44,243 nt of DNA. It comes from Oligoflexia bacterium. GTDB taxonomy: Bacteria > Bdellovibrionota > Bacteriovoracia > Bacteriovoracales > Bacteriovoracaceae. The notes beneath the pieces were generated by a model, which saw only the letters and a list, made by a program, of their open reading frames with translations, did no database searches and was not told the DNA's origin. The DNA is taken from contig JADGAN010000041.1 of assembly GCA_015231955.1 (NCBI GenBank), positions 1 to 44,243 of the forward strand, written 5' to 3'. Shown piece after piece: positions 12,140 through 39,287 of this stretch (within the stretch, counting starts at the first letter, position 1; each line of letters opens with the position of its first letter). A program made the position numbers and the translations under genes.

Positions 12140-12551
12140 GATTTTAATAGTAGATGATGAGGTTCAGATTTTAAAACTATTAAAACAATCTCTTGATGGA
12201 CTCGGTTATGAAATTGAAACAACGGAAGATCCTTTGCAAGCCATGAAGATGATTGAAAGCCGCAATTATCATATTGTGATTACTGATATTGCCATGCCGG
12301 GCATGAATGGCGTTGATCTCATTAAAAAGATCAAAACCTACAATGGGATGATTCAAATTGTCATGATTACTGGTTATACCACAACGGTTAATGTTTTGGA
12401 TTCTCTACGTAGAGGGGCCTCTGATTTTTTCTTTAAACCTTTTGATGATATTTACAAGGTTGTAGATTCAATCAATAGTATTGTAGAGCGAATAAAACGT
12501 TGGAATTTTGAACTTGAAAAGATTGTCTTATCCAGTAAACAAAAAAAATGA
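12129..12551 (+). CDS. Single-receiver response regulator
   Basis: This 140-residue CheY-like protein has the acidic pair in VDDE, phospho-acceptor Asp53 in VITDIAMPGMNG, a Thr in MITGYT and Lys in FKPFDD. A short C-terminal helical extension follows the receiver domain and there is no DNA-binding domain. ATG 12129 is preferred because AAAGGAG ends 7 nt upstream; a GTG at 12123 is too close to it. The start lies inside the end of the upstream kinase gene, so the two are probably translationally coupled. It is a likely phospho-target of that kinase or of the adjacent CheA. Confidence 0.9.
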   Translation: MNIRILIVDDEVQILKLLKQSLDGLGYEIETTEDPLQAMKMIESRNYHIVITDIAMPGMNGVDLIKKIKTYNGMIQIVMITGYTTTVNVLDSLRRGASDFFFKPFDDIYKVVDSINSIVERIKRWNFELEKIVLSSKQKK

Positions 12552-12564
12552 AAGGATACAATTC

Positions 12565-14490
12565 ATGAAGGCATCGGAGATTGAAAACCAAGAAGTCATT
12601 AAGGATTTTTTGCAAGAAGCTCAAACGATTTTATTAGATTGTGAAAATATGGCCGTAGATTTGTCAGCTGATAAACTACAAAAAAATGCTGGTATTATTA
12701 ATACTGTTTTCGGTCATATTCATAGTATTAAAGGAAGTAGTGGTTTTTTTAATTTTGATAATGTCATTAATGTGGCCCACAAGTTCGAAACGCTGTTAGG
12801 CCAGATAAAGAATGGAGAGAAGGCGATCAATCAGGATCTGGTCACACTGATCTTGGAAGGGATTGACCATATCAAGCAGCAGATCCTTAAGCTTGATAGC
12901 AGTTTGGAACATACAGAATTAAGTGACGAAGATCGCGCTTTTATAAAAAAGATAGAAGAGATTAGCAGTGCTAAGATTGGTGATGAGGTTACGGAGGCTT
13001 TTCAAAAAACGTGGACAGATTTTGGGACTATGCTTAAGTGCCAGGACGCTAATCTTCTTAGAGCAATCGACCCCATAAAGCTCCATCAGATTATCGAGCA
13101 AGCAAAGGTCTTGGTTGATCTATTTAATCACAAAGTAAAAATAGGAGAAGTAGTAAGTAAACCCAATGAAGCTGAAGAAGCTGAAGAAGCTGAAGAAGCT
13201 AAAGAAGCTGAAAAAGCTGAAAAAGAAGAAAAAGCCGAAGATGCAAAAAAAGGAAAAGAAGAAAAATTTATTCGCATTAATCAAAACCATCTTGATCTTT
13301 TTCTCCATCAAATTGGGGAAATTTTGTTGCAAAAAGAGGTTATCTCGTATGTTCAGGGAAAAATTGCAGCTGGCAATCGTGTTGGTGCCGCCGCTGATTT
13401 TGCTAAGGAACTAAAAAATGCCATCGAAGTGATGGAACACTGTACGATTCAGCTGCAAACGAGTGCTATGACTTTGAGAAAGATGCCTGTAGGACAACTA
13501 TTTTCCAAATACAAAAGAGTGGTTCGTGATTTGTCCTTGAAACTTGACAAGGTTGTTGAAGTAGAAATGATTGGGGAGGAGATTTTAGTTGATAAAAATT
13601 TGCTAGACGGGCTAGATATGCCGCTTACCCATCTGGTTCGTAATTCCATTGATCATGGAATTGAAAATGCTACGGTAAGGGGCGCGAGAGGGAAGCGTCC
13701 TCACGGGAAAATTACTTTAAGAGCTGAAACGAACCAAGATTGGACAACAGTAGAGATTAGTGATGATGGGAACGGGCTTGATCTTGAAAGAATTCGCAGT
13801 AAAGCGGTATCGAAGGGCATAGTAAGTGATGCAGAGGCAAAAAAGCTATCACAGGAAGAGATCTATGCCTTGATCTTCAAACCAGGTTTTTCCACCAATG
13901 AAGTTGTTAATGAAATTTCTGGTAGAGGCGTAGGCATGGATGTGGTGAAAACTTCGATTGATAAATTAAATGGAAAAATTCAAATTCATTCCGTGCCTGA
14001 AAAAGGTAGTACCTTCATTTTGAAATTACCTAATACTTCCACGCTTATGACCAAGGACTCTATTATCTGTAAAATGGGACAGCAAGTTTTGGCCATACCT
14101 CTTGAAAATATTATTGAAGTGATAAAACTAAGGCCTGCTGATCTTCATGTGGCATCGGACAAACAAAGGATTTTTTGCTATCGGGATAAAATGATTTCCA
14201 TTGCTACACTTGCTGAGATCTTGAATTATGAGTACACTTCAGAAGACTCGACCCCAAGTACCTCCAGTGAACTTACGGCCATTATTTTATCCAACGGGAA
14301 AAATGATCGAGTAGCAGTGATCATTGACCGAACTTATGGGAAACAAAGTATTGTTATTCGAGTTCTCAACAAAAAGATGCTGAACTCTAGTGAGCTTTTT
14401 TTAGGGTCTGCCATCTTGGGTGATGGTCAGATCGTTTTAGTTATCAATGCGGAAACAATTTTGCAAACGATGCATCAGTCGATCAGATAG
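12565..14490 (+). CDS. cheA: CheA-type chemotaxis histidine kinase (first copy)
   Basis: The protein has 641 residues from ATG 12565, 13 nt after the preceding stop. Domain order is an Hpt/P1 domain with phospho-accepting His53 in HSIKGSSGF, a linker with an Ala-Glu-Lys low-complexity repeat (about residues 200-235), a dimerisation domain, a HATPase_c domain (HLVRNSIDHGIE, SDDGNGLD, GFSTNE, GRGVGMD) and a C-terminal CheW-like P5 domain. No clear P2 (CheY-docking) domain is visible. It would transfer phosphate to receiver proteins in response to a chemoreceptor array. The gene overlaps the convergent PAS-domain gene by 8 nt at the 3' end. It differs clearly from the second CheA at 23670. Confidence 0.93.
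   Translation: MKASEIENQEVIKDFLQEAQTILLDCENMAVDLSADKLQKNAGIINTVFGHIHSIKGSSGFFNFDNVINVAHKFETLLGQIKNGEKAINQDLVTLILEGIDHIKQQILKLDSSLEHTELSDEDRAFIKKIEEISSAKIGDEVTEAFQKTWTDFGTMLKCQDANLLRAIDPIKLHQIIEQAKVLVDLFNHKVKIGEVVSKPNEAEEAEEAEEAKEAEKAEKEEKAEDAKKGKEEKFIRINQNHLDLFLHQIGEILLQKEVISYVQGKIAAGNRVGAAADFAKELKNAIEVMEHCTIQLQTSAMTLRKMPVGQLFSKYKRVVRDLSLKLDKVVEVEMIGEEILVDKNLLDGLDMPLTHLVRNSIDHGIENATVRGARGKRPHGKITLRAETNQDWTTVEISDDGNGLDLERIRSKAVSKGIVSDAEAKKLSQEEIYALIFKPGFSTNEVVNEISGRGVGMDVVKTSIDKLNGKIQIHSVPEKGSTFILKLPNTSTLMTKDSIICKMGQQVLAIPLENIIEVIKLRPADLHVASDKQRIFCYRDKMISIATLAEILNYEYTSEDSTPSTSSELTAIILSNGKNDRVAVIIDRTYGKQSIVIRVLNKKMLNSSELFLGSAILGDGQIVLVINAETILQTMHQSIR
13171..13224 (+). repeat. In-frame 9-nt tandem repeat in cheA
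   Basis: Six near-identical 9-nt units based on GCTGAAGAA encode an AEE/AEK/AKE run in the CheA linker between the phosphotransfer and dimerisation domains. The units are in frame, so copy-number change would alter linker length without disrupting the protein. Similar charged linkers are common in CheA proteins. Confidence 0.9.
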
Positions 14491-16078
14491 GTAAAATCAT
14501 TTTCAGTATGCTGCTTTGCGATGATTTTTTTTCTTGGGTCTTTAATTGCGTATAAATTTGCACAAACCATTCTGTGATAAAAGTGAACGCCTTGGTCTCG
14601 TCTCGGAGTTCTTTTTTGTCATGAAGAAAGCAAGTGGAATTGATTTTAAAACACCCTATTTGTGTTCCATAGTGAATTAATGGGAATGAGATATGTTTTG
14701 TGTGAGGGCCGTTGAACTTGGCATGAAAGAAATCCTTTTTTTCAATCGACAAATGGCCGTAGATTGGAACTTTGAAAAGATCTATAGCACTTATAAAGTC
14801 GATAAAACTTAGACACATGTTTTTCAGGGTTGAGGTTTCGTCATTTAAATGGAAATTAAAAAACAAGAGAAACCTTTGAACAAGGCGGTCATATTGAAAA
14901 ACATGATCGTTTGAGTTTTGGTGTTCTGATGAGGGACGTTCGAGGCCTAGCATACAAACTTTACGATTATTTAAATCAAACTCCACTTTATGGATATTGA
15001 ATAATTTGGTGGCGTGATGTGATGAATTTTGTTCTTGCAGTAGGCAGGTCTTGCTGTTGCAAGGATGAGAATGACGGTCGGTGTTGATGAGATCGCTACA
15101 GCTTAATTGTAAAATTTCATTTTTAGAATAGTTTAAAAAAGAGTAAGCGCTATTGTTTGTATCTATTACCTTTTTACTCTCTTTGTCGATAAGCAATAAA
15201 ATTTCATCAATCACTTGTTCTTTGATTTTATATTGCAGTTGAAGTTTGTCGAAATTTTTCTGGAGCATTTTTTTTCTGGTTATATCTGTGGTGGAAATGA
15301 AAACACCAAGGATTTGTGAGGATTTGTTAGTATAGGGAATAAAAGTGTTTCTTACCCATAGCTCTGTAGATGAAATGTTTTTAATTATTTTATCTTTTCC
15401 TACTAGATGGAGGTTATCCCTGATGACTTTTCTGATCGAAGGAATGATTTCATCATCTAAGTATGCAATATTAAAATCCAGGAAATTTCGACCAATGATT
15501 TGAGGAAGCTTTAGCTTAAAGAGGTCTTCCCAAAATGCATTGGCAAAAATTATTCTCAAATTGAGATCAATTAAGATCAGACCGAACTTGTGATTGTGAA
15601 GAGCATGGCTCATAAAAGAATGCGCTATTGCATCATTGTTGTAGGCCAATGTTATCGTAGGTGTTTGTAAATCTGATGGTGTACAAGGGTGATCATTTTT
15701 TGGTGAAATAATAAGTTTGTTATCGGTTATTGTTTTTGAGAAAAAATAGGTGGCTTCCAAAGGGTTTAAGTGATCTATAAAGAGGAGATCAAGAAGCAGT
15801 TCTTTTGACGTTTCAATGGCCAGATAACCTTTTCTTTTCTCTCCGTTAAATTGAATCATGACTTCATGGATTTTATAGTGAAAATTTTTTAGATCAAGAT
15901 AGTGTTGTCGCTTGGAATTGTTTGATCCTTTGTTTTTTTTTATCCAGCGGCCAATGGAAGTATGATCGACATTAAGACCTCGAACCTTCAAAGTGGTTTC
16001 AATATCACGTAGAGTAAGTTTGTGGTGAGTATGCCAGTGTTCACAGAGGAAGATCAGGTCGGTATCTGTTTTTTTCAT
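14483..16078 (-). CDS. PAS/GAF sensor with IS6-transposase-like N-terminus
   Basis: The 531-residue protein joins two unrelated parts. Residues 20-110 follow the N-terminus of IS6/IS26-family transposases: LTLRDIETTL, then RGLNVDHTSIGRWIKK (HTH; IS6 form RGixVDHSTIxRWV), then a strand pattern matching DETxIKVxGKxxYLxRAVD. The Asp positions that are catalytic in the DDE enzyme appear here as His (IHEVMIQFNG) and Glu (LAIE), and the remainder of the catalytic core is missing, so transposition is not expected. Residues 155-275 are a PAS domain and 285-390 a second PAS, with a CNSKTC pair. Residues 400-520 look GAF-like. No kinase or GGDEF output is seen. I infer a DNA-binding sensor, transcribed divergently from the MCP operon. 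Confidence 0.72.
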   Translation of the reverse strand: MKKTDTDLIFLCEHWHTHHKLTLRDIETTLKVRGLNVDHTSIGRWIKKNKGSNNSKRQHYLDLKNFHYKIHEVMIQFNGEKRKGYLAIETSKELLLDLLFIDHLNPLEATYFFSKTITDNKLIISPKNDHPCTPSDLQTPTITLAYNNDAIAHSFMSHALHNHKFGLILIDLNLRIIFANAFWEDLFKLKLPQIIGRNFLDFNIAYLDDEIIPSIRKVIRDNLHLVGKDKIIKNISSTELWVRNTFIPYTNKSSQILGVFISTTDITRKKMLQKNFDKLQLQYKIKEQVIDEILLLIDKESKKVIDTNNSAYSFLNYSKNEILQLSCSDLINTDRHSHPCNSKTCLLQEQNSSHHATKLFNIHKVEFDLNNRKVCMLGLERPSSEHQNSNDHVFQYDRLVQRFLLFFNFHLNDETSTLKNMCLSFIDFISAIDLFKVPIYGHLSIEKKDFFHAKFNGPHTKHISFPLIHYGTQIGCFKINSTCFLHDKKELRDETKAFTFITEWFVQIYTQLKTQEKKSSQSSILKMILPI

Positions 16079-16230: not shown

Positions 16231-16267
16231 TATGGTTGTTGCATATTTGTTGTTTGCAACAATCATA
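16231..16267. promoter_or_regulatory. 13-bp imperfect palindrome with TTGCA core
   Basis: Arms TATGGTTGTTGCA (16231-16243) and TGCAACAATCATA (16255-16267) are inverted repeats matching at 12 of 13 positions around an 11-nt spacer. It may be an operator or an RNA hairpin. There is no T-run to suggest a terminator. Confidence 0.5.
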
Positions 16268-16358: not shown

Positions 16359-16388
16359 GTGAAATTTTTAGTTGTTGCAAATAAATAA
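16359..16388 (+). CDS. Possible 9-residue leader peptide
   Basis: GTG 16359 is preceded by AAAGGAG (16344-16350) at an 8-nt spacing and opens a nine-codon frame (VKFLVVANK) that ends within the loop of the next palindrome. The ribosome binding site is as strong as those of the real genes nearby. A leader peptide could couple translation to the hairpin, but so short a frame can arise by chance. Confidence 0.22.
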   Translation: MKFLVVANK

Positions 16389-16396
16389 TTTGCAAC
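16374..16396. promoter_or_regulatory. Perfect 9-bp palindrome GTTGCAAAT/ATTTGCAAC
   Basis: The arms GTTGCAAAT and ATTTGCAAC are perfectly complementary around the 5-nt loop AAATA. The same TTGCAA core occurs at 16327-16332 and, in split form, at 16231-16267. This is the best operator candidate in the divergent region. Confidence 0.55.
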
Positions 16397-16615
16397 AGAA
16401 AGGAGATGCAAAATTCTAATGAGGAACTTATAAAACATGTGTACATGAATGAGACAGAGATTTGCCTGATTGTTATTTATTTTATTCGATCTAAAATTAG
16501 TCTCAAGATCTTAAAGAATTTTTCGATACAGTGCCGGGAGCAAAGTTATGAAAATAGAATTTAAATTTTCTAGGCAAATAACAAACAGGAATAAAAAAAA
16601 TTAAAAGGAGTGTTT

Positions 16616-18628
16616 ATGTCAAAACTAGCAGTACCTGCATCTCATGAATTACACCATTCAAATCAAACAGAACATAAAGTCGAATCAAAAATGGGAAAAG
16701 TTCTTTCTTTGCATTCGACAGATCATAAAGTAGATGTCAAACATCAAAGTTCCCTTGATATGGCAGAACAGCGTAGACAGGCCAAAGAAAAGGCCGAGAA
16801 GAGGACACAATCTCGCACACTGGCCATGAGACAACAAGCGGCAGAGAGAATCGCCTCTGCGACAGAGGAGCTTGCAAGTGGAGTGGCCGAGGCCAATGCG
16901 GCCGCAGATCAGTTGTCACAAGCAATGGCCTCTATTTCTGCAGGAGCTGCTCAAGCTAGTAGCGCAGCTCAAGAGAGTCAAAGTGTGGCCCAGTCGCTCC
17001 TTAAAGGGGCCGAGGCCAATAGTGCGGCCGCCAGTCAGTCGCTTACCAAAGTGAACAACATTATTACCTTGGTACGAACCACTGCAGGCGATATTGATAA
17101 ACTCATCTCTGTTGTGGGAGTTGCTTCTGAACGCAATGTCGAGTCAGCGAAAATGATTTCAGAGCTTGAGGTTCAGGCCAATGAGATAGGTAATGTTGTA
17201 AAGGCGGTTGCAGGGATTGCAGATCAAACCAACTTACTCGCGCTTAATGCTGCGATTGAGGCCGCTCGTGCCGGAGAACATGGTCGAGGTTTTGCCGTGG
17301 TTGCTGATGAAGTGAGAAACTTGGCGGAAGTGGCAGAAAAATCTGCACGCGATATCAGTGAGCTCATCGTTAATATTCAAAAAGATGTCAATATGGTTGC
17401 CAAGGATACGGAAAAATCTGGAGTGACCGCCAAAGAAGAGGTGGAAAAGGGAAAAATCATCACCAAACAATTGATTCAAATTGAGTCGGAGATCAAGTCC
17501 GTGCAAGAGGGTACCGCAATTATCAATGATCGCAGCACAGAAATGTCTGCGGCCGTTAATCAATTTAAAAAAGGGGCGGAAATCATCGCCAGTGCGGCAG
17601 AAGAATCCTCCAGTGCTGCCAGAGAAGCAACTGCAACAACAGGGGAACAAAAAAAGGCCTTAAAAGATATAGAAAGCGCTACAGATGAGATTGCTCAAAT
17701 GGCAGAAGATTTAAAACATAATACTAATTCTGAAAAGAGTAGTGAGGCCTTGGCCTCGGCAGCGGAAGAGCTTTCTGCTACGATTCAACAAGCAAACGCT
17801 TCTGCACAACAAATCATGGCGGCCATCGGTCAAATTGCAAAGGGGGCAGAACAACAAGGCAATGCAACTCAAGAGTCATCGGCCGCCCTGAAACAAATTG
17901 AAAAGAATACCTTGGATATTGGAGATAAGAGCAAAATATCTCTGGAAAAAGTTAATACTTGCCAGAAATTGTTGGTCGAAAATAAAAAAGCAGTGGATCT
18001 TCTTATTGATGGAGTCAGTAAGGCCGCTCAATCGAGTAAAGAGTCGGGACAAAATGTGACCAACCTTCAGCAAAGAATTCGTCAAATTGATAAGATTGTC
18101 GATGCCATCACCAACACGGCCACGAAAACAGATATGCTTGCTATCAATGGAGGTATCGAAGCTGCACGTGCCGGTGATTTTGGAAAGGGTTTTGCCGTTG
18201 TCGCCGGAGATATTCGCTCCCTCGCCACTGATTCTGCAACTAATGCAGAAAAGATAAAAGATATGGTAAGAAATATTCAAGACAAAATTCACATTGTCTC
18301 GAAAGATATTTTCGAAGTTGGTGAAGCCGCTCAAAGAGAGGCCCAGAACGCTAAAAAATCGACTGATAGTCTTAATCAAATTGAAGCCGATGCGAGTGAA
18401 GTGCAAAAAGGTGTCCTCTCTATTCAGAATGCTTCTCAAGAGGCAGTAACGGCGGTTCAGCAAGCACAAAAAGGTGTGGAGCAAATCTCTTCGGCCGCTC
18501 AGCAATCTTCAAGTGCTGCTCAAGAAGCTTCTAGTTCGGCCGAACAACAGGGGAAGGGGATGCAAGAGTTGGCCAAGGCGGTTGAGGATATTGCTGCACT
18601 CGCAGATGAAATTCAAAATAAACCATAA
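16616..18628 (+). CDS. Soluble chemoreceptor with two fused MCP signalling domains
   Basis: The 670-residue protein begins at ATG 16616 with AAAGGAG 5 nt upstream. It has no transmembrane segment and no recognisable ligand-binding domain. After about 60 residues of polar leader there are two complete long helical MCP hairpins. The first tip (about residues 198-237) reads [20 protein letters not shown]. The second (about 496-537) reads [19 protein letters not shown] and is more divergent. Each is flanked by Ala/Gln/Ser-rich heptads of the methylation-helix type. It should form a cytoplasmic array with the CheW and CheA proteins of the same operon. The input signal is unknown; it could come from an interacting protein such as the nearby PAS sensor. 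Confidence 0.9.
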
Positions 18629-18672
18629 ACGCTCTTTGAGGATGATGTTTTAATAATTTCAAGGAGAAACTT

Positions 18673-20196
18673 ATGGCAACAAATCAAGAAATTGCTCTTG
18701 GCACAGATCAAATAGTGACCTTTCGCTTGGCCGAAGAAGAGTTGGCACTGCCCATTAATTCGGTTCAAGAGATTATAAAGGTACCTGATATCACCCATGT
18801 TCCAAATACACCTTCGTATGTTGATGGTATTGGAAATTTACGAGGAAAGATCCTTCCTATTGTGAACCTTCGAAAACGCTTAGGCCTTGCAGAGAAGGAA
18901 AAAGATGATGCTACCAGAATCGTGGTTTTAAATGTGAATGGGATCACCACAGGTTTTATCGTCGATAGCGTCTCGGAAGTCATGCATATCGAGAAGAGCT
19001 CTTTAGAAAAACCTCCGGAGTCGGTGGACGGTATTGAGGGACAATATCTTCGTAGCATTGCTAAAATTGACGAAGGCAAGAGATTGGTTCTTCTCTTGGC
19101 CGAAGAGCATGTTTTGCCTGAACTGGCAGAGCTCATTAAAGCACAAAAAGGGGATGGAAGTCAGACCAAGGAGAACATGGAGATGGAGAATACGACTAAT
19201 CATAAGCAAGAGGCCTCAGAACAAGTGGTGACGTTTAAAGTTGCCAACGAAGGCTTTGCTATTGATATTATGAGAGTGAAAGAGATTATCCGTGTAACTG
19301 AAATCACACCCGTGCCCAAAGCACCACAGTACATCGTCGGTGTAATGTCGCTTAGGAATCAATTGCTGCCCATTATGGATTTAAGGGTTTTGTTTAATCA
19401 AAAAAACTTACGGGAAGAGATGGGTGAAAAAATCTCTCAAGACAAAATCGATAGTCAGAGAATCATTGTTGTCGATATCGAGGGCGTGCTTACAGGTATT
19501 CAAGTGGATTCAGTGTCACAAGTCCTGGCCTTGGAAAAAAAATCGATTGAACCACCTCCGGCCATTATCAGTAGTGGCCAACAAAATCGTATCAGAGGTG
19601 TTGGTAAGCTGGAAAATGGTAAACGCCTACTGATGCTGCTAAACGAGGATAGTCTTGTGTCTCAACTAGAAAAACAACAAATCCTCGCCACCGCAGGTGC
19701 TGGAGTGATAGGTGCTGATAAAATAAAAAAAATCAGTGAAATGACAACCAATGATGAAATGCAGTTGGTTTGTTTTAAAATTGATCATGAAGAGTATGCG
19801 ATCAATATCATGAAAGTGCAGGAAATTATCAGGGTCAATGAGATCACCTCTGTTCCTAAAACGAAAGAGTACATGAAAGGTATTATCAATCTGAGAGGAA
19901 CCGTGGTTCCAGTTGTGGATATGAGAACCCGCTTTGGACTTAATGCTCTTGATGATAAAGAACAATGCCGGATTGTTGTGGTCAGTATCGATGGAAAAAT
20001 TACGGGACTGATTGTCGATTCAGTCACGGAAGTTTTAAGAGTTCCTAAAAATCAGATTGAAGCACCACCGGCCTCAGTTGCCAATGTCGATGGCAAATTC
20101 ATTGATGGCGTTGGTAAATTTAATGAGGGAAAGCGAATTATTGTCCTCATCAATGCCGATTGTATTCTTGCTGCTGATGAAGCTAAAGCAGCTTAA
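18673..20196 (+). CDS. cheW: Triple CheW-domain coupling protein
   Basis: Three CheW domains lie in series in 507 residues (about 10-165, 180-345 and 360-500). Each begins with a (V/L)xFxxxxEExxxxI-type strand, followed by an (L/M)xVxEIIxVxxITxVPxxPxYxxGxxxLRG block and an IVDSVxEV block. CheW normally links receptor tips to CheA. Fusing three may let one polypeptide bridge several receptor or kinase units in an array. ATG 18673 has AAGGAG 6 nt upstream. It follows the MCP gene by 44 nt and overlaps cheD by 20 nt. Confidence 0.94.
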   Translation: MATNQEIALGTDQIVTFRLAEEELALPINSVQEIIKVPDITHVPNTPSYVDGIGNLRGKILPIVNLRKRLGLAEKEKDDATRIVVLNVNGITTGFIVDSVSEVMHIEKSSLEKPPESVDGIEGQYLRSIAKIDEGKRLVLLLAEEHVLPELAELIKAQKGDGSQTKENMEMENTTNHKQEASEQVVTFKVANEGFAIDIMRVKEIIRVTEITPVPKAPQYIVGVMSLRNQLLPIMDLRVLFNQKNLREEMGEKISQDKIDSQRIIVVDIEGVLTGIQVDSVSQVLALEKKSIEPPPAIISSGQQNRIRGVGKLENGKRLLMLLNEDSLVSQLEKQQILATAGAGVIGADKIKKISEMTTNDEMQLVCFKIDHEEYAINIMKVQEIIRVNEITSVPKTKEYMKGIINLRGTVVPVVDMRTRFGLNALDDKEQCRIVVVSIDGKITGLIVDSVTEVLRVPKNQIEAPPASVANVDGKFIDGVGKFNEGKRIIVLINADCILAADEAKAA

Positions 20197-20665
20197 CACC
20201 GGTGATGCCGGGTTAGGATGTGATCAAGATATTTTAAGTACAGATGGAGTTGGGTCTTGTGTTGTGCTTTGTCTTTGGGATCCGATTAGAAAAATTGGCG
20301 CCATGGCACATATGTCTCAGGCCTCGACGGATAAAGGAGGTGCCATGAGACCCTTTTCTTTTGGCAGTTGTCCGGAGTTGGCCATCCCCTTCCTCTTGAA
20401 GAGGATGCTCGCCAGAGGTTCTTTGGCCTGTGACATTTGTGTACGAATTGTCGGGGGAGGGAACATGTTTTATGAGATTAAAGAGGGCTCTTTAATGGAC
20501 ATAGGGACACACATCGTTCATGCAACGCTAGAAACTTTAAATCAAGAAGGACTTCATCTTACGTCATCAGCTCTTGGTGGAAAATTTGGAAGAAGTGTAC
20601 AATTTTCTGTGGACTCAGGTCTTATAGAAATAACGGCGACAAATGGGGAAAAAGTTTTTCTTTAA
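20177..20665 (+). CDS. cheD: Chemoreceptor glutamine deamidase CheD
   Basis: The 162-residue protein starts at ATG 20177 inside the end of cheW; a longer upstream frame carries no CheD homology. The catalytic Cys lies in GVGSCV and the His in AMAHMSQ, with a Thr a few residues before the Cys, as in the CheD Thr-Cys-His triad. CheD converts receptor glutamines to glutamates and can be regulated by CheC or CheY-P in other bacteria. No CheC gene is present here. Overlap with cheW suggests translational coupling, since no separate ribosome binding site is evident. Confidence 0.92.
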   Translation: MKLKQLNTGDAGLGCDQDILSTDGVGSCVVLCLWDPIRKIGAMAHMSQASTDKGGAMRPFSFGSCPELAIPFLLKRMLARGSLACDICVRIVGGGNMFYEIKEGSLMDIGTHIVHATLETLNQEGLHLTSSALGGKFGRSVQFSVDSGLIEITATNGEKVFL

Positions 20666-20683
20666 AAGAGGAGTTTACTCAAG

Positions 20684-21769
20684 ATGAAACGCCTTAAAGT
20701 TTTAATTGTAGACGATTCTGCTCTAATGAGGAGAGAGATACGAAAAATTTTTGAAACAGATCCGGATATTGAAGTGGTTGCTGCCTCTCGAAACGGAGAA
20801 GAGGCCTTGGAACACGTGGCCCGCTTGGATCCAGATGTGATTACCTTGGATATCAATATGCCGGACATGGATGGTTTGACAGCACTTCAACATATCATGA
20901 TGCAATTTCCTCGTCCTGTGATTATGTTGAGTTCGCTTACGCAGGAAGGCTCGATTACAACCTATGAGGCCTTGGAATTAGGAGCTGTTGATTTTGTAGG
21001 AAAGCCCGGTGGCACGATTTCCAAGAACATTATGGAAGTGAGTAATGATCTTATTTTTAAAGTTAAAGCAGCAGCAGAGGCCAATTTATCAAAACTCGGC
21101 CACTCCAGAAAACGACGGCGAATGCAAGCTCAAACTGCGCCACTAAATAAAGGCCCAAAGCTTAATCGGAAAATGGGAAAAGAAGGAGATAAGATTGTGG
21201 TCTTCGGTCAATCCACAGGGGGGCCTAATACTATTTTTGAAATCATCCCTCATCTACCGGCGGATTTAGGTGTCCCAGTGATTATTGTTCAGCATATGCC
21301 TGGTTCTTTTACTTCGGGTTTTGCAAAACGGATTGATGAAAGCTGTGCCTTTCCTTTCAAGGAAGCTGCTGATGGCGATGTGCTTGAACCTGGTTGTGGC
21401 TATCTCGCCCCAGGAGATGTTCATACGGTTTTGGCAACAAGAGGTCTTGGCCAAAAAGGGTATCTTTTGAGAACGACAAAATACCCAGAGGGAACACTTC
21501 ACACACCCTCTGTTGATGTAACGATGGGTTCTGTTCTTGAAGCTTATGGCGGCCCTAATATCATCGCTGTTTTACTGACCGGGATGGGTGCCGATGGGGC
21601 CAATGCCATGGCCGATATCAGACGTAGTGGAGGAAGAACCATTGCGGAGTCGGAGGAGACGTGCGTGGTGTTTGGAATGCCCAAAGAGGCCATTTCCAGA
21701 GGTGGAGCAGAGTTTGTGCTTCCCTCCTATGATATTGCAAGCAAGATCGTTGAATTGGTAAAAAAATAA
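20684..21769 (+). CDS. cheB: Chemotaxis response regulator methylesterase CheB
   Basis: This 361-residue protein has a receiver domain (VDDSALMRR, Asp56 in TLDINMPDMDG, GKPGG region) joined by a basic linker (about residues 140-160) to a CheB methylesterase domain. The catalytic Ser177 lies in GQSTGGP, with a His in VQHMPGSFT and an Asp in GMGADGAN. It demethylates and deamidates receptor glutamates in opposition to CheR. AGAGGAG lies upstream of ATG 20684. It sits between cheD and a HEAT-repeat gene in the same operon. Confidence 0.95.
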   Translation: MKRLKVLIVDDSALMRREIRKIFETDPDIEVVAASRNGEEALEHVARLDPDVITLDINMPDMDGLTALQHIMMQFPRPVIMLSSLTQEGSITTYEALELGAVDFVGKPGGTISKNIMEVSNDLIFKVKAAAEANLSKLGHSRKRRRMQAQTAPLNKGPKLNRKMGKEGDKIVVFGQSTGGPNTIFEIIPHLPADLGVPVIIVQHMPGSFTSGFAKRIDESCAFPFKEAADGDVLEPGCGYLAPGDVHTVLATRGLGQKGYLLRTTKYPEGTLHTPSVDVTMGSVLEAYGGPNIIAVLLTGMGADGANAMADIRRSGGRTIAESEETCVVFGMPKEAISRGGAEFVLPSYDIASKIVELVKK

Positions 21770-21785
21770 CAGGGAAGAGAGAGTT

Positions 21786-22469
21786 ATGGTTCGAACGATT
21801 GAGGAACTTTGTATAGCGCTTAAAAATAAAGAGGAGTCTTACCGATGTGATGCCATCCTAGAGCTTAAAGAGCTCAATAGCTCGCTAGCGATTTCTCTGT
21901 TATTTAATCATTTAAGTGATGAATCTCCTCGGATAAGGGAAGTCACGGCAGATGCCTTGGTTGAGATCGGTGGAATCCAAGTCGCACTGATGTCACTCTG
22001 TTTGCTCCGATCAGAAAAGGTGGTACTACGAAATGTTGCCTTGGAGATTGTACAACAGCTTGGTATAGACGCCCTGTCTGTGCTTAAAGACAACATCACT
22101 TCTCCTATCTCTGATATTCGCATTTTCACCGTTGAAACCATTGGAAAAATAATTGCAAAAAGAAAGCTTGCTCTTGATCAAGAACTCCTTTCTGCTCTTA
22201 TTGAACGTCTTGGTGATGAAAATGTCAATGTCGCCGGTGTTGCGGCCGAGGCACTTGGTTTTGCCAAAGAAAACGCCGCAATCCCCGCTTTACTTCAATA
22301 TGTTGTTTCGGGCCGGAAATCTTCCTGGCTTCAATGTAATATCATTGTGGCATTATCGCGCATTGGAAGTGGAGATGCGCTCACTGCTATAAAAGGTCTT
22401 GATCGGAAAGTGCTCTCAGAAGAGGCAATCGTTTATTTAGAGATGGTCTTAAAAGGAGAGGTATTGTGA
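21786..22469 (+). CDS. HEAT-repeat protein in chemotaxis operon
   Basis: The 227-residue protein is built from helical repeats of the HEAT or PBS-lyase-like type. Examples are SYRCDAILELKEL, SPRIREVTADALVEIGG, DIRIFTVETIGKI and NVNVAGVAAEALGFAKENA. No catalytic residues are evident. It is a likely scaffold or adaptor. The gene ends 4 nt into cheR, so it is tightly coupled to the methylation system. HEAT proteins beside cheB and cheR are known in some uncharacterised chemosensory clusters, but I cannot assign a function. Confidence 0.85.
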   Translation: MVRTIEELCIALKNKEESYRCDAILELKELNSSLAISLLFNHLSDESPRIREVTADALVEIGGIQVALMSLCLLRSEKVVLRNVALEIVQQLGIDALSVLKDNITSPISDIRIFTVETIGKIIAKRKLALDQELLSALIERLGDENVNVAGVAAEALGFAKENAAIPALLQYVVSGRKSSWLQCNIIVALSRIGSGDALTAIKGLDRKVLSEEAIVYLEMVLKGEVL

Positions 22470-23293
22470 TTGGAGCGATTGAGTTAGAGAAAATAAGAGC
22501 ACTCATCTATAAAGAGACGGGGATGCTTTTTGAAGAAAAAAAAGATTACTATCTTATCAATAGACTGCAACAACGAATGAGTGAACTCGGGATCATCTCT
22601 TTTAATGAGTACTACAAAACTTTAATCTTTGAGGACAGGTCAAAGGAGCTTCAAAGCTTTATTGAATCCATTACTATTAATGAGACTTATTTTTTTCGTG
22701 ATTTTCCGCAATTGCAAGGTTTTGCAGAAAAAGTGTTACCCGCCTACTTAGAACAGAAACGCAAAAAATTCAACTCTGTTTTAAAAGTATGGTCTGCCGC
22801 TTGTTCTACAGGAGAGGAGGCCTATACTTTGTCCATTATATTACAAGAGATGATCGAGGACTATGCACACTGGAGCGTTTCCGTTGAGGCCACGGATATC
22901 GATCGCAATGTGATTGGCCATGCAGAAAAAGGCATTTATAGTGAGAGATCGATGAAAGATACACCGGAAGCTTATCGAAAAAAATATTTTGTTCCAATGG
23001 GAGAGGAGTGGCAGGTCTCGAAATTAAAAAAACACCCCATTGATTTTAAAACACTCAATTTTACAGATAAAGAGGCCATGAAAAAAATGAGAAATTTCGA
23101 TGTCATTTTTTGCCGGAATGTTCTCATCTATTTTGATGATCAGTCAAGAAAGTCAGTTGTGAATTTACTCTATGACTCTTTAATCCCTGGGGGACACTTG
23201 TTTTTAGGACATTCTGAAAATATTGGTAGAATTACCGCCGCTTTTGAGCTGCAAACACTTGGCGGTTTTATTTGCTATAGGAGACCTCTGTGA
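22466..23293 (+). CDS. cheR: Chemoreceptor methyltransferase CheR
   Basis: The 275-residue enzyme uses GTG 22466, overlapping the preceding stop, with AAGGAG about 9 nt upstream. The CheR N-terminal helical domain contains INETYFFRD. The SAM-binding domain contains KVWSAACSTGEEAY, EATDIDRNV and DVIFCRNVLIYF. It methylates receptor glutamates using S-adenosylmethionine. No C-terminal pentapeptide or TPR tether is seen. It overlaps the cheY-like gene by 4 nt. Confidence 0.95.
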   Translation: MIGAIELEKIRALIYKETGMLFEEKKDYYLINRLQQRMSELGIISFNEYYKTLIFEDRSKELQSFIESITINETYFFRDFPQLQGFAEKVLPAYLEQKRKKFNSVLKVWSAACSTGEEAYTLSIILQEMIEDYAHWSVSVEATDIDRNVIGHAEKGIYSERSMKDTPEAYRKKYFVPMGEEWQVSKLKKHPIDFKTLNFTDKEAMKKMRNFDVIFCRNVLIYFDDQSRKSVVNLLYDSLIPGGHLFLGHSENIGRITAAFELQTLGGFICYRRPL

Positions 23294-23664
23294 GTGTAAC
23301 AAAGAAGATCTTGCTGATTGATGATTCGAAAATGGTATTATCTTTTCATGCCAATATCTTAAGAAAACATGGTTTTGAGTGTTCTTGTGTAGAAAATGGC
23401 TTCATGGCCTTGGAAGAGTGCTTGCGAAAGCAATTTGATCTGATTTTAACAGATATTAATATGCCCAAAATGGATGGTTATGAGTTCACCAGAAAAATCA
23501 GAGAGGTTTTAAGTTATAAAGAGATCCCTATTATCATGATTTCAACGGAGCAAGAAGCACAGGACAAGAGCAAAGGGATGGAAGCTGGTGCCAATGTTTA
23601 TATTGTAAAACCTGTTCTGCCGGAGGATCTAATCATGCACCTTAAATTGCTGATCGGAGAATAG
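23290..23664 (+). CDS. cheY: CheY-like single receiver protein
   Basis: This stand-alone 124-residue receiver has an IDDS acidic motif, Asp55 in LILTDINMPKMDGYEF, MIST in the Thr/Ser position and Lys in IVKPV. GTG 23290 overlaps the cheR stop. The close linkage to cheA, 5 nt downstream, makes it the probable direct phospho-acceptor of that kinase. Whether it talks to a flagellar motor is unknown, because no flagellar genes are present in the window. Confidence 0.9.
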   Translation: MSVTKKILLIDDSKMVLSFHANILRKHGFECSCVENGFMALEECLRKQFDLILTDINMPKMDGYEFTRKIREVLSYKEIPIIMISTEQEAQDKSKGMEAGANVYIVKPVLPEDLIMHLKLLIGE

Positions 23665-23669
23665 AAGGA

Positions 23670-25688
23670 ATGCAAGCTCATCAAGTGCCCCCTGATTTAT
23701 TGGAACAATTTAAAATTGAGTCTCATGATAATATTGAACAGGCCGAGGTAGCGCTACTTTCCATCGAACAGGGAAGTAGTGTACAAGAAGAAATAAATGA
23801 AATTTTCAGAGCAATCCATACAATTAAAGGATCTGCTGCTTATCTTGAATTAACCGACATCAAAGAGCTATCGCATGCTTTTGAAAACACCTTGGATACC
23901 ATCCGCAAAAGCAAGCAAATAGAAATCCCCAAAGAAAAACGAGACCTTTTTTTTACAGTTCTGGATACCATTAAGTCCTTAATTTTTTTGTTTCATGGAG
24001 AAGCGCACGTTTTTGACATTAAGGAGATGATACGGTCGCTAGAGATTCCAGGCGAAGAGGAAAAAAGTGTACAATCTTCAGAAAATAAGTTTGGAAAATT
24101 TAAGGATAGATCTGCTAAGATTTTTTGTGAAAATGTGGATCAGCAGTTTGAAACATTAAAACGTCTTGGCAATAAAATTATTGAGGTCAATAGTTTTGAT
24201 GAGGATTCGTACACTATTGCTTGCCGTGCTGTTCAGGGTATAAAGAATGCCTGTCAATTTATTGGAGAGTTTGAGCTTGAAGAGACCTCTGTTGCTTTTA
24301 AAGAATGGCTTGAGAGTGGAAAAACAAGTAAAGAGGTGAAAATAGTTATCGAGCAGCAAGCTCGATACTTGAAGAAAGTAGAAGAGGTGCTTTGTAAATT
24401 CACAGAAGGTAATGGTGGAAAAAAAGAGGCAAAAAATCATCATCTTCTTCTTCAGCAGGAGATGGTTCCATTAAAAGCATCAAAAACCGTAAGAGTTGAT
24501 CAGGGCCTTTTAGATGAATTTATGAATTTAGTTGGAGAGCTTATCGTTTCTAAAAATGTGTTTGCTCACCTTCAGACAAAACTAATGACAAAAGGAAAAG
24601 AAGAAGATAGAGCAACAACGGTCAAGGAATTTAAGGAGTCTTCAAAATTTCTTAGTCGAATCACTGCAGAGTTGCAACAAAAAGTGATGAAACTTAGAAT
24701 GGTTCCAATCAGGACATTATTTCAAAAATATCCTCTGGTGGCACGTGATGTTGCCAGTAAAACGGGCAAGCTGGTTAATGTGCAATTCGAAGGAGAGGAG
24801 ACTGCCATTGATAAAGGGATCGCTGATCAGATTTCAGAACCCCTGCTTCATCTTGTTCGAAATGCCGTTGACCATGGCATTGAAACACCTGATGATCGTA
24901 AGAAGGTTGGAAAAACGGAAGCGGGAACGATCCTACTAAGAGCAGCTTATCAAGGAAATTTTATTATTCTTGAAATTTTAGATGATGGGAATGGAATCGA
25001 GATCGATAAAGTGAAGGCCAAGGCCATTGAAAAAAAATTTTTGACTGTAGCAGATGCAGAAAAAATAACAAAGCAGGAGATTCTCGATTATATTTTTGTT
25101 CCAGGACTCACTACTTCTTCTTCGATTACGGATATTTCCGGTCGTGGAGTTGGTCTTGATATTGTGAAAAATAATTTAAAAAAAATAAAGGGAAATGTTT
25201 CTGTTAACACAGAAGAAGGGGAGGGAACTTCGTTTAAAATAGAGGTTCCTTTAACCATGGCCATTATGCCGGCCCTTCTCGTGAAATCATGCGACTCTAT
25301 TTACGCACTTCCACTTGCTGAAGTCAGTGAGACCATTAAGATTCCTTTAAGTGAACTACAAACTTTATGTACGAAGAAGGCCATTGTTTTGAGAGGTAAT
25401 GTGGTTCCTGTTGAAGATCTTAACAAGGTATTGGGAGGTTTGGAACAACAGCAAGAGAGAAAACTGCTTCGTCTTTCTATCGTGATCTTAAACAGTAGTG
25501 GCAGTCAATTTGGCCTGATTGTTGATTCTGTTTGCGGTCAGGAAGAAATTGTTGTGAAACCACTACCAGAGACCTATTCCCATATTCAAGGGTTGTCCGG
25601 AACCTCTATTTTGGGAAATGGAAAAACTATTTTGATTTTAGACTGTGGTCAGCTGTATAATGTCTTAGTGGGAAGAACAGAGAATTAA
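23670..25688 (+). CDS. cheA: CheA-type chemotaxis histidine kinase (second copy)
   Basis: The 672-residue protein has an N-terminal Hpt domain (His50 in IHTIKGSAAYLE), then a poorly conserved helical section (about 135-255) that could be a second Hpt-like or docking module without its own His motif, followed by the dimerisation domain. A HATPase_c domain (HLVRNAVDHGIE, DDGNGIE, GRGVGLD, GEGTSF) and a C-terminal CheW-like domain complete it. It is in the same operon as receptor, CheW, CheD, CheB and CheR and is therefore the core kinase of this array. It is a distant paralogue of the CheA at 12565. Confidence 0.94.
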   Translation: MQAHQVPPDLLEQFKIESHDNIEQAEVALLSIEQGSSVQEEINEIFRAIHTIKGSAAYLELTDIKELSHAFENTLDTIRKSKQIEIPKEKRDLFFTVLDTIKSLIFLFHGEAHVFDIKEMIRSLEIPGEEEKSVQSSENKFGKFKDRSAKIFCENVDQQFETLKRLGNKIIEVNSFDEDSYTIACRAVQGIKNACQFIGEFELEETSVAFKEWLESGKTSKEVKIVIEQQARYLKKVEEVLCKFTEGNGGKKEAKNHHLLLQQEMVPLKASKTVRVDQGLLDEFMNLVGELIVSKNVFAHLQTKLMTKGKEEDRATTVKEFKESSKFLSRITAELQQKVMKLRMVPIRTLFQKYPLVARDVASKTGKLVNVQFEGEETAIDKGIADQISEPLLHLVRNAVDHGIETPDDRKKVGKTEAGTILLRAAYQGNFIILEILDDGNGIEIDKVKAKAIEKKFLTVADAEKITKQEILDYIFVPGLTTSSSITDISGRGVGLDIVKNNLKKIKGNVSVNTEEGEGTSFKIEVPLTMAIMPALLVKSCDSIYALPLAEVSETIKIPLSELQTLCTKKAIVLRGNVVPVEDLNKVLGGLEQQQERKLLRLSIVILNSSGSQFGLIVDSVCGQEEIVVKPLPETYSHIQGLSGTSILGNGKTILILDCGQLYNVLVGRTEN

Positions 25689-27967: not shown

Positions 27968-30337
27968 ATGATAACAAAAACTCTTTCCCCGGAACTACTC
28001 CACAAGATGGATGCCTATTGGCGTGCTGCCAACTATCTATCGGTAGGACAGATTTATCTTTACGACAATCCACTACTGAAGCGCCCACTGAAACTATCTC
28101 ATGTAAAACCACTGCTAGTCGGGCATTGGGGTACGGCGCCGGGGCAAAACTTCATCTATGTGCACTTGAATCGGATCATCAATAAGTATGATCTCAATAT
28201 GTTCTATATAGCGGGGCCTGGCCATGGAGGTCAGGCGATGGTGAGCAACACCTATCTCGAGGGCAGCTACAGTGAGATTTACCCTGAGATCACGGAGGAT
28301 GAAGCGGGGATGAAAAAACTGTTCACCCAATTCTCTTTTCCGGGAGGCATCTCCAGTCATGTAGCACCGACTACTCCAGGATCGATTCACGAGGGTGGTG
28401 AGCTGGGGTACTCGCTCTCCCATGCATTTGGTGCCGCCTTCGATAATCCTGACTTGATCGTTGCTTGTGTTGTTGGCGATGGTGAGGCAGAAACCGGACC
28501 ACTAGCAACCGCTTGGCACTCCAATAAATTTCTTAATCCCATTAGTGACGGGAGTGTACTTCCGATCTTACACCTCAATAGTTTCAAGATCAGCAACCCA
28601 ACTCTCCTCGCCCGTATCGAGCATGAGGAGTTGGAGCAACTCTTCCGAGGTTACGGTTGGACGCCATACTTTGTTGAGGGTGATGATCCGACCGAAATGC
28701 ATGAGATGATGGCCACCACGCTTGATAAAGTTACTGAGAGTATTTTGCAAATCCAAAGCAATGCTCGCAAGAATAACGATACCACTCGGCCCAGGTGGCC
28801 AATGATCATCCTTCGTTCACCCAAGGGGTGGACGGGACCAAAAGTTGTAGATGGTCTGCAAGTAGAAGGTACTTTTCGCGCGCACCAGGTTCCAATCTTA
28901 GTGGATGCCAAGCATTCGGAGCATCTGATGCTGCTTGAAAGTTGGATGAAGAGCTATAAAGCAGAAGAGCTGTTCGATGAGAATGGCAGACTTCTCCCGG
29001 AATTAGCAGAACTAGCACCTAAAGGCGATCGACGAATGGGCGCTAATCCTCACACCAATGGAGGCATTCTACTACGTGATCTACAGCTGCCAGACTTCCT
29101 TGAGTATGCAGTCAAGGTACCATCGCCTGGGGCCGTAGAGGAGCAAGATACGCTAGTGCTTGGCAAGTTCTTGCGTGACGTAGTGAAACTGAATCAGGAA
29201 CATCGTAACTTTCGTGTCTTTGCTCCCGATGAGACGCTTTCAAATCGTTTGAGTGCAGTCTTTGAAACAACCAATCGTCAGTGGGATGCCAGAACAGTAA
29301 GTGGCGATGAGTTCTTAGCACCCAGCGGACGGGTGGTAGATTCGATGCTCAGTGAGCACCAGTGCGAGGGTTGGCTGGAAGGATATCTGCTCACTGGACG
29401 CCACGGATTGTTTAATTGCTATGAGGCCTTTATTCACATCATCGATTCCATGTTCAACCAGCATGCCAAGTGGCTGAAGGTCACTGCTGAACTGCCATGG
29501 AGAAGAAAGATCGCCTCGCTGAACTTTCTGCTCACCTCTCACGTCTGGCAGCAGGATCACAACGGCTTTACTCACCAGGATCCCGGTTTCCTCGATCATG
29601 TCGTTAATAAGAAGGCGGATATCGTGCGTGTTTATCTTCCTCCAGATGCCAACTGCTTGCTGTCGGTTTTTGATCACTGCCTACGCAGTCGTCACTATGT
29701 GAACGTGGTGGTTGCAGGAAAACATCCCCTCCCTCAATGGTTGAATATGGAGGATGCCGCTTCTCATTGTGCTGAAGGGGTCGGCATCTGGCAATGGGCC
29801 AGCAACGATCAAGGTGTTGCCGAAGGACCAGATATTGTCATGGCCTGTTGTGGAGACACACCAACGCTAGAGATCTTGGCGGCCGTTTCCATCCTTCATC
29901 AATATTTACCTCATCTAAAAATCAGAGTGATCAACGTCGTCGATCTCATGAAGTTAGTGCCCAGTACGGAGCATCCGCACGGGCTGACCGATGAGGCCTA
30001 TGATGCTCTTTTCACCAAAGATAAACATATTATCTTTGGTTTTCATGGATATCCTTGGCTGGTTCATCGTCTAAGCTACCGCCGAACTAATCGCAACCTT
30101 CACGTTCGAGGTTACAAAGAAGAAGGCACCATCACCACCGCCTTTGATATGAGAGTACAAAACGATCTGGATCGCTTTCACCTAGTGAAAGATGTGGTTG
30201 ATCGCTTGCCCCATTTGGGTGCTAAAGAGATCCATCTAAAAAAGATAATGGATGAGAAGCTCATTGAACATAAGATGTACATCGATAAGCACGGCAAAGA
30301 TATGCCAGAGATCAGGAACTGGAAGTGGGATCATTAG
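27968..30337 (+). CDS. xfp: Phosphoketolase (xylulose-5-P/fructose-6-P)
   Basis: This is a full-length 789-residue thiamine-diphosphate enzyme that cleaves xylulose 5-phosphate (and often fructose 6-phosphate) with phosphate to give acetyl phosphate. Family motifs include [53 protein letters not shown], the central [23 protein letters not shown] and the C-terminal [22 protein letters not shown] replaces the commoner HLNGYKIANPT. ATG 27968 has AAAAGGAGG at a suitable distance. No acetate kinase follows; the downstream neighbour is convergent. A deleted relative lies at 36708. It probably supplies acetyl phosphate and ATP during stress or sugar limitation. Confidence 0.97.
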
Positions 30338-35283: not shown

Positions 35284-35853
35284 ATGTTGCTCAGTGATGT
35301 GAAATATATAGAGGCCCTTATTGGAATGGATACCCATGCTCTTTCCGTGCCGGCTTTTACGAGCGCGCTGGAAGTGCTGGCGGCAAATGGGATAGAGGTC
35401 ATGATCGCACAGAGAGATGAATGCACTCCAACCCCGGTTATCTCCCACGCTATTCTCGCTTACAATAGCGGGCGCAAGACAGGACTTGCCGACGGCATCG
35501 TCATTACTCCATCCCATAATCCTCCAAATGGAGAACCAGCAGAATCCTCTATCACTTCTGGGATTGAAGCAAAAGCAAACTCGTTTCTCGAGGATGGTCT
35601 GCTAGGGTTGAAAAGAATTTCTTTTAAGAAAGCTCTTCATGCTCCTACCACTCATCGGCACGACTATCTCAACTCTTATATTGCTGATCTCGGGAGTATC
35701 ATCGATATGGATGTCATTGCTGGTGCAAAGATAAAACTTGGAGTTGATCCACTTGCGGGCGCTGGCCGTAGCTATTCCACTGGAGGAGGCAAGAATCCTA
35801 TGGCAACGATGAAGAAAACAAATACAATCACCTGCCTGTTTCTTGATATTTGA
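35284..35853 (+). pseudogene. pgm: Phosphoglucomutase fragment
   Basis: The 189-codon frame matches the interior of alpha-D-phosphohexomutase phosphoglucomutase: IGMDTHALSVPAFTSALEVL, TPTPVISHAILAYN, GLADGIVITPSHNPP with the active Ser, THRHDYLNSYIADLGS and KIKLGVDPLAGAG. The first part of the enzyme (about 90 residues) and everything after the GVDPLAGAG strand are missing. SHNPPNG appears where the family normally has SHNPPEDGGFKYNPPNG, so about 10 codons between two NPP codings were lost. The tail after GAGRSY is unrelated. An intact Pgm would interconvert glucose 1- and 6-phosphate; this remnant should be inactive. Confidence 0.85.

Positions 35854-36707: not shown

Positions 36708-39287
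<2,580 letters not shown>

Follow-up and report, generated by a model that had tools for sequence, protein, structure and literature searches.

A putative one-component PAS regulator with an IS6 transposase-derived DNA-binding domain, and candidate operators resembling IS6 terminal inverted repeats

One-component HTH-PAS regulators, the domestication of transposases and regulators derived from TnpB (TldR) are all already known. In animals, new transcription factors are known to arise from the DNA-binding domains of transposases; for bacteria, the cases that we know of or could find are repressor-type factors borne on MGEs and the TnpB-derived, RNA-guided TldR proteins. TldR is a bacterial transposon protein that was turned into a regulator and has a dead nuclease. 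More specifically, the TldR proteins are transcription factors exapted from TnpB, a transposon nuclease (PMC13418256), and SETMAR is a host domain fused to the Hsmar1 transposase (PMC6326780). An HTH and PAS sensors are combined in one polypeptide in the HTH-PAS protein FG214 (PMC13060918) and in PpsR (PMC3949515), the HTHs of which are not described as transposase-derived. Transposases of the IS6 family possess a three-helix H-HTH, and Harmer and Hall noted an extra conserved D (E in two cases) between their catalytic residues (PMC6807381). The terminal inverted repeats (TIRs) of bacterial members of the IS6/IS26 family have the consensus GGTTCTGTTGCAAA and carry a bidirectional −35 motif (PMC6807381).

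The protein considered here is encoded in a window of 44,243 nucleotides (contig JADGAN010000041.1, Oligoflexia bacterium, family Bacteriovoracaceae) by an intact ORF of 531 codons without internal stops (14483–16078, minus strand). It consists of an IS6-type H-HTH, half of an RNase-H fold, two PAS domains and a C-terminal region. With the IS6/IS26 transposases (NF033587; PF13610) it shares the H-HTH and the first beta-beta-beta-alpha unit of the catalytic fold, and the TGTTGCA core of their DNA ends recurs at its locus. Unlike these transposases, it has lost the first catalytic Asp, carries PAS domains in place of the rest of the DDE domain, lacks a flanking pair of GG-tipped TIRs and is present in a single copy. 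As in FG214 and PpsR, HTH and PAS sensors share one polypeptide, but in the fusion a remnant of the IS6 catalytic fold lies between them. Whereas TldR is RNA-guided and belongs to another protein family, the fusion joins the HTH of a DDE transposase, for which direct DNA binding is proposed, to sensor domains. SETMAR differs in that it combines a eukaryotic mariner element with a histone methylase and has transposon-end sites genome-wide.

The relationship of the N-terminal part to IS6 transposases was established at the sequence level. The IS6 transposase profile NF033587 matched the whole protein with an E-value of 9.3e-15 (residues 2–119, profile positions 4–120 of 202), and residues 1–126 alone with an E-value of 6.7e-16. 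The score (55–59 bits) is below the full-length cut-off of 125 bits, as expected from a match that covers about half of the profile length; the full-length match over H-HTH and DDE domain expected of an IS6/IS26 transposase is accordingly not met. Pfam family DDE_Tnp_IS240 (PF13610) matched weakly (residues 67–121, E 0.018). In pairwise BLAST comparisons with seven genuine IS6 transposases, resident in the genome or plasmid-borne, all seven displayed 23–30% identity. The best relative was transposase L012 (E 2e-16 in the database of seven sequences), with which the captured domain has the motif VDHTSI in common. No other family outscored IS6 in the sequence searches. Thus, residues 2–119 are homologous to the IS6 transposase, although this is homology and not membership of the family. 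The original prediction, which had aligned residues 22–115 with IS6/IS26 transposases and had proposed a profile search and structure prediction as checks, is borne out by these matches and by the predicted fold.

An AF2 model of residues 1–135, for which the input included four IS6 rows from viral contigs, reached a pLDDT of 75.6 and a pTM of 0.69. It contains the three helices of an H-HTH (3–18, 23–32 and 39–48), followed by a fourth helix and by a beta-beta-beta-alpha unit (68–118) that makes up the N-terminal half of an RNase-H fold. The helix-helix-turn-helix (residues 3–48, RGLNVDHTSIGRW; 15935–16072, minus strand) is therefore kept according to both the profile and the model; the earlier reading had noted a helix-turn-helix block within its IS6-like stretch. 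The RNase-H (DDE) half-fold spans residues 67–119 (15722–15880, minus strand), with strands at 68–77, 80–89 and 95–100 and a helix at 106–118. Structural comparisons were less specific. The HTH of the ISCth4 transposase superposed on residues 6–48 with 1.0 Å over 42 residues (Z 4.2), but HTHs of the DeoR/SorC type scored similarly; residues about 62–120 superposed on retroviral integrase cores, but with Z below 5; and Foldseek searches against PDB and BFVD gave nothing under an E-value of 0.001. The full-length model of the 531-aa protein was too poor (pLDDT 40) and was discarded.

It had been suggested that two Asp residues of the DDE core are replaced in this protein, by His and Glu, and that the region of the last catalytic Glu is missing. 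The first replacement stands: His71 (codon 15866–15868, minus strand) aligns with the first catalytic Asp, found in IS6 transposases in the motif MDETY. Glu89, on the other hand, falls at the Asp of 'AVD'; this acidic position is conserved without being catalytic. Since genuine IS6 transposases have an extra D, or E in two cases, between their catalytic residues, the change at Glu89 is not a catalytic lesion. The second catalytic Asp falls beyond the secure profile match, which ends at 119–121, and may correspond to Asp129 in the alignment. The E-DH---K motif, which bears the last catalytic Glu, is absent from the alignments, as predicted, and no complete DDE triad is present. With the first Asp replaced by His71 and the last Glu absent, the protein cannot work as a transposase.

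There are signs that the DNA-binding part has been preferentially retained, although these amount to a trend only. Identity to transposases L006 and L012 is 41–43% over the H-HTH versus 21–25% over the catalytic half, and the H-HTH preserves its DH..I.RW signature while the catalytic Asp is lost. When L006, L012 and L013 were compared with each other, the H-HTH was not consistently the better conserved half. However, the contrast is weak with L013 (12/46 identical residues in the H-HTH, 10/52 in the catalytic half), and the invariant IS6 positions are kept at 8 of 20 sites in the H-HTH versus 7 of 25 in the catalytic half, a difference that is not significant (Fisher p 0.53).

Both PAS domains lie in frame downstream of the IS6-like part. 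PAS domain 1 occupies about residues 155–267 (15278–15616, minus strand; PF00989 E 1.9e-12, PF13426 E 1.7e-12) and PAS domain 2, detected when the stretch was searched in isolation, residues 291–357 (15008–15208, minus strand; PF13426 E 1.4e-6). The two PAS domains of the original prediction are thus confirmed, but the GAF-like region that it placed after them is not: the last 147 residues (385–531; 14486–14926, minus strand) had no Pfam match in a profile search of the isolated stretch, the model there is of low confidence, and we assign this region to no family. Having a DNA-binding domain and PAS sensor domains in one polypeptide without a kinase domain, the protein meets the definition of a one-component PAS regulator.

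The fusion gene and a gene for an MCP-type protein are divergent and separated by 537 bp; the ATG of the latter, preceded by AAGGAG, is at 16616. Between them lie two putative operators, O1 (TGTTGCAAATAAATAATTTGCAACA, 16373–16397), a 10-bp perfect inverted repeat, and O2 (TGTTGCATATTTGTTGTTTGCAACA, 16237–16261). Both have the form TGTTGCA-N11-TGCAACA, and their centres are 136 bp apart, which corresponds to 13 helical turns at 10.5 bp. Sequences of the type TGTTGCA-N(9–13)-TGCAACA occur exactly twice in the 5.6-Mb genome, both times in this intergenic region, whereas the five N11 sites with one mismatch are all within long open frames. A count with a control pattern (60 versus 5) was set aside because the control was poorly matched and contains CG. 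No other 7-bp inverted repeat (gap 3–20) in the window has a second, same-arm copy within 500 bp, and none with such a copy arose in 30 dinucleotide shuffles. Among 124 genomes of the family, eight others contain the exact site, and all seven loci examined are inside long open frames. No good promoter was predicted at O1 or O2 in a promoter scan. The possibility that the sites act as −35 boxes of hybrid promoters was rejected, as no −10 box is found at the proper spacing and the scan yielded none.

The half-site TGTTGCA, although identified independently, is contained within the 14-bp IS6 TIR consensus GGTTCTGTTGCAAA. One arm of O1, CTTTCTGTTGCAAA (16389–16402, minus strand), matches this consensus at 12 of 14 positions, the terminal GG being the only difference. 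A match of 12/14 is by itself not rare in 44 kb, and the other three half-sites match at only 8–9 positions, the TGTTGCA core being common to all four. We estimate the chance of a given 7-mer lying in the TIR at about 0.001 (8 positions × 2 strands / 4^7 = 16/16384). The TIR of the L012 element is a perfect 18-bp GGTTCCGTTGCATTAACT at both ends and contains GTTGCAT, as does O2, and the TIR pairs located next to IS6 copies of other records follow the consensus pattern. The genome contains TCTGTTGCAAAT twice, one of the copies being at the O1/O2 locus. Matches to the TIR consensus with up to three mismatches include no pair flanking the fusion gene, and TIR-core sequences are found only upstream of it, as dyads without GG; the features of an IS6/IS26 insertion sequence (about 0.8 kb, TIRs starting with GG, 8-bp duplication) are therefore not met. 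The same genome harbours two near-identical intact IS6 copies (L006 and L007) with the TIR GGTTCTGTCGCACGATCC, and a decayed one (L008) with stop codons. Given that the resident IS6 is only 27% identical to the captured domain and that its TIR is slightly different, the domain was not recently derived from these elements.

Taking the fusion and the sites together, we consider it probable that the protein is a one-component PAS regulator whose IS6-derived DNA-binding domain binds the TIR-like operators, so that the protein regulates its own expression and probably that of the che operon. The fusion and the two sites are observed; binding, the signal and the direction of regulation are inferred, and there are no relatives that could show selection or conservation of the sites. 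Proteins with two PAS domains usually dimerise. In the proposed mechanism, an IS6-family transposase supplied the DNA-binding domain, which was joined to PAS sensors that would dimerise the protein and sense some signal. Each of the two TGTTGCA arms, which are 18 bp or nearly two helical turns apart, would be occupied by one H-HTH unit of a dimer, and dimers on O1 and O2, sharing one face of the helix, might cooperate or loop the DNA; binding would regulate the fusion gene and probably the che operon too. Autoregulation and control of the che genes through cooperative binding or looping are in keeping with a pair of in-phase dyads between divergent genes, and with no such palindrome elsewhere in the genome a regulon would not extend beyond this locus. 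The presence of two genome-unique TIR-core palindromes in its own divergent promoter region also supports the original view of the protein as a domesticated DNA-binding sensor encoded next to a chemosensory operon, with the regulation itself inferred. More tentatively, and with greater doubt than attaches to the regulator itself, the domain and the operators may both have been inherited from one IS6 element, the TIR core having been duplicated into dyads to give a ready-made regulator-operator pair that came under a PAS sensor and governs a chemosensory operon.

The fusion could instead be a non-functional read-through, in which a decaying IS6 fragment came by chance to lie in frame before a PAS gene and the H-HTH has no role. 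IS6 decay does occur elsewhere in this genome (L008), the H-HTH keeps only 8 of 20 invariant positions, and no relatives exist to show selection. Yet the frame of 531 codons has remained intact while its IS6 part drifted to 23–30% identity, and the DH..I.RW signature has outlived the catalytic Asp. Furthermore, GC3 is equal in the two parts of the fusion (0.352 and 0.361), which makes it probable that the join is not recent but old enough to have ameliorated. As the TIR-core palindromes also lie in the promoter region of the fusion gene itself, we regard a chance read-through as quite unlikely.

The remaining alternatives concern the palindromes. Even if the fusion protein is a regulator, these might belong to another transcription factor, their likeness to IS6 ends being fortuitous; short motifs do coincide, and the four half-sites share no more than the 7-bp core. 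However, the genome has no further such site, at the loci examined in the family the site is found only inside long open frames, and we put at roughly 1 in 1000 the chance that an unrelated factor would have its only two sites beside the fusion gene and that these would also carry the TIR core of exactly this transposase family, which makes this explanation unlikely. In an IS or MITE, a single TIR tipped with GG is found at either end, and 8 bp of the target are duplicated. Both sites here are complete dyads in themselves with a spacer of 11 bp, the two dyads are 136 bp apart and none of them has GG at the tip, so that relics of an inserted IS6 element or MITE would be a very improbable source of the sites, despite their sequence likeness to IS6 TIRs and the known existence of IS6 MITEs (PMC7986276).

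A search for the same fusion in other genomes had been proposed along with the original prediction, and no other copy was found. The fusion was not detected in 96 relatives, in 129 genomes of the family searched with the IS6 profile, in 369 genomes of the phylum, in two broad scans of genome contigs covering 84,980 species (which detect close relatives only), or among viral contigs, phages and 72,556 plasmids. Among the long frames with weak IS6 matches, those that resembled fusions were inspected; two of them (L026 and L022) are, on our reading of their sequences, IS66-type transposases. Within the family, the triple-CheW protein of the locus lacks close relatives (29% identity over its length at best), hence synteny revealed no older version of the locus. 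In line with the claim that no family of this architecture has been described, the literature searched, which was restricted to open-access sources, yielded no description of a fusion between an IS6 H-HTH and sensor domains.

The novelty of the locus lies in a DDE-transposase HTH fused to sensors, with candidate operators that still bear the transposon-end core. If binding is confirmed, this would provide a direct view of a transposon supplying both a regulator and its sites; as there is one locus with two sites, a single protein and a single 220-bp probe suffice to test the proposal. Elements of the IS6/IS26 type are of medical importance, and TIR recognition may be open to study with the captured domain as a catalytically dead model.

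The presumed target, for which regulation is inferred, is the divergent chemosensory cluster at 16616–25688 (plus strand), encoding an MCP-type protein, a triple CheW, CheD, CheB, HEAT repeats, CheR and CheA. In the MCP-type protein (16616–18628), the only Pfam matches are two MCP signalling stretches that are separate from each other. The next protein (18673–20196) contains three CheW domains, and its best full-length relatives in the family are 27–29% identical. On the other side, a CheA-like gene (12508–14490) converges on the fusion gene with an overlap of 8 bp and bears the low-complexity stretch EEAEEAKEAEKAEK. Further along the window, reading of the translations suggests that 35284–35853 encodes a seemingly truncated phosphoglucomutase, an N-terminal fragment, and that 36770–37480 is an apparent second, internally deleted copy of the phosphoketolase gene at 27968–30337.
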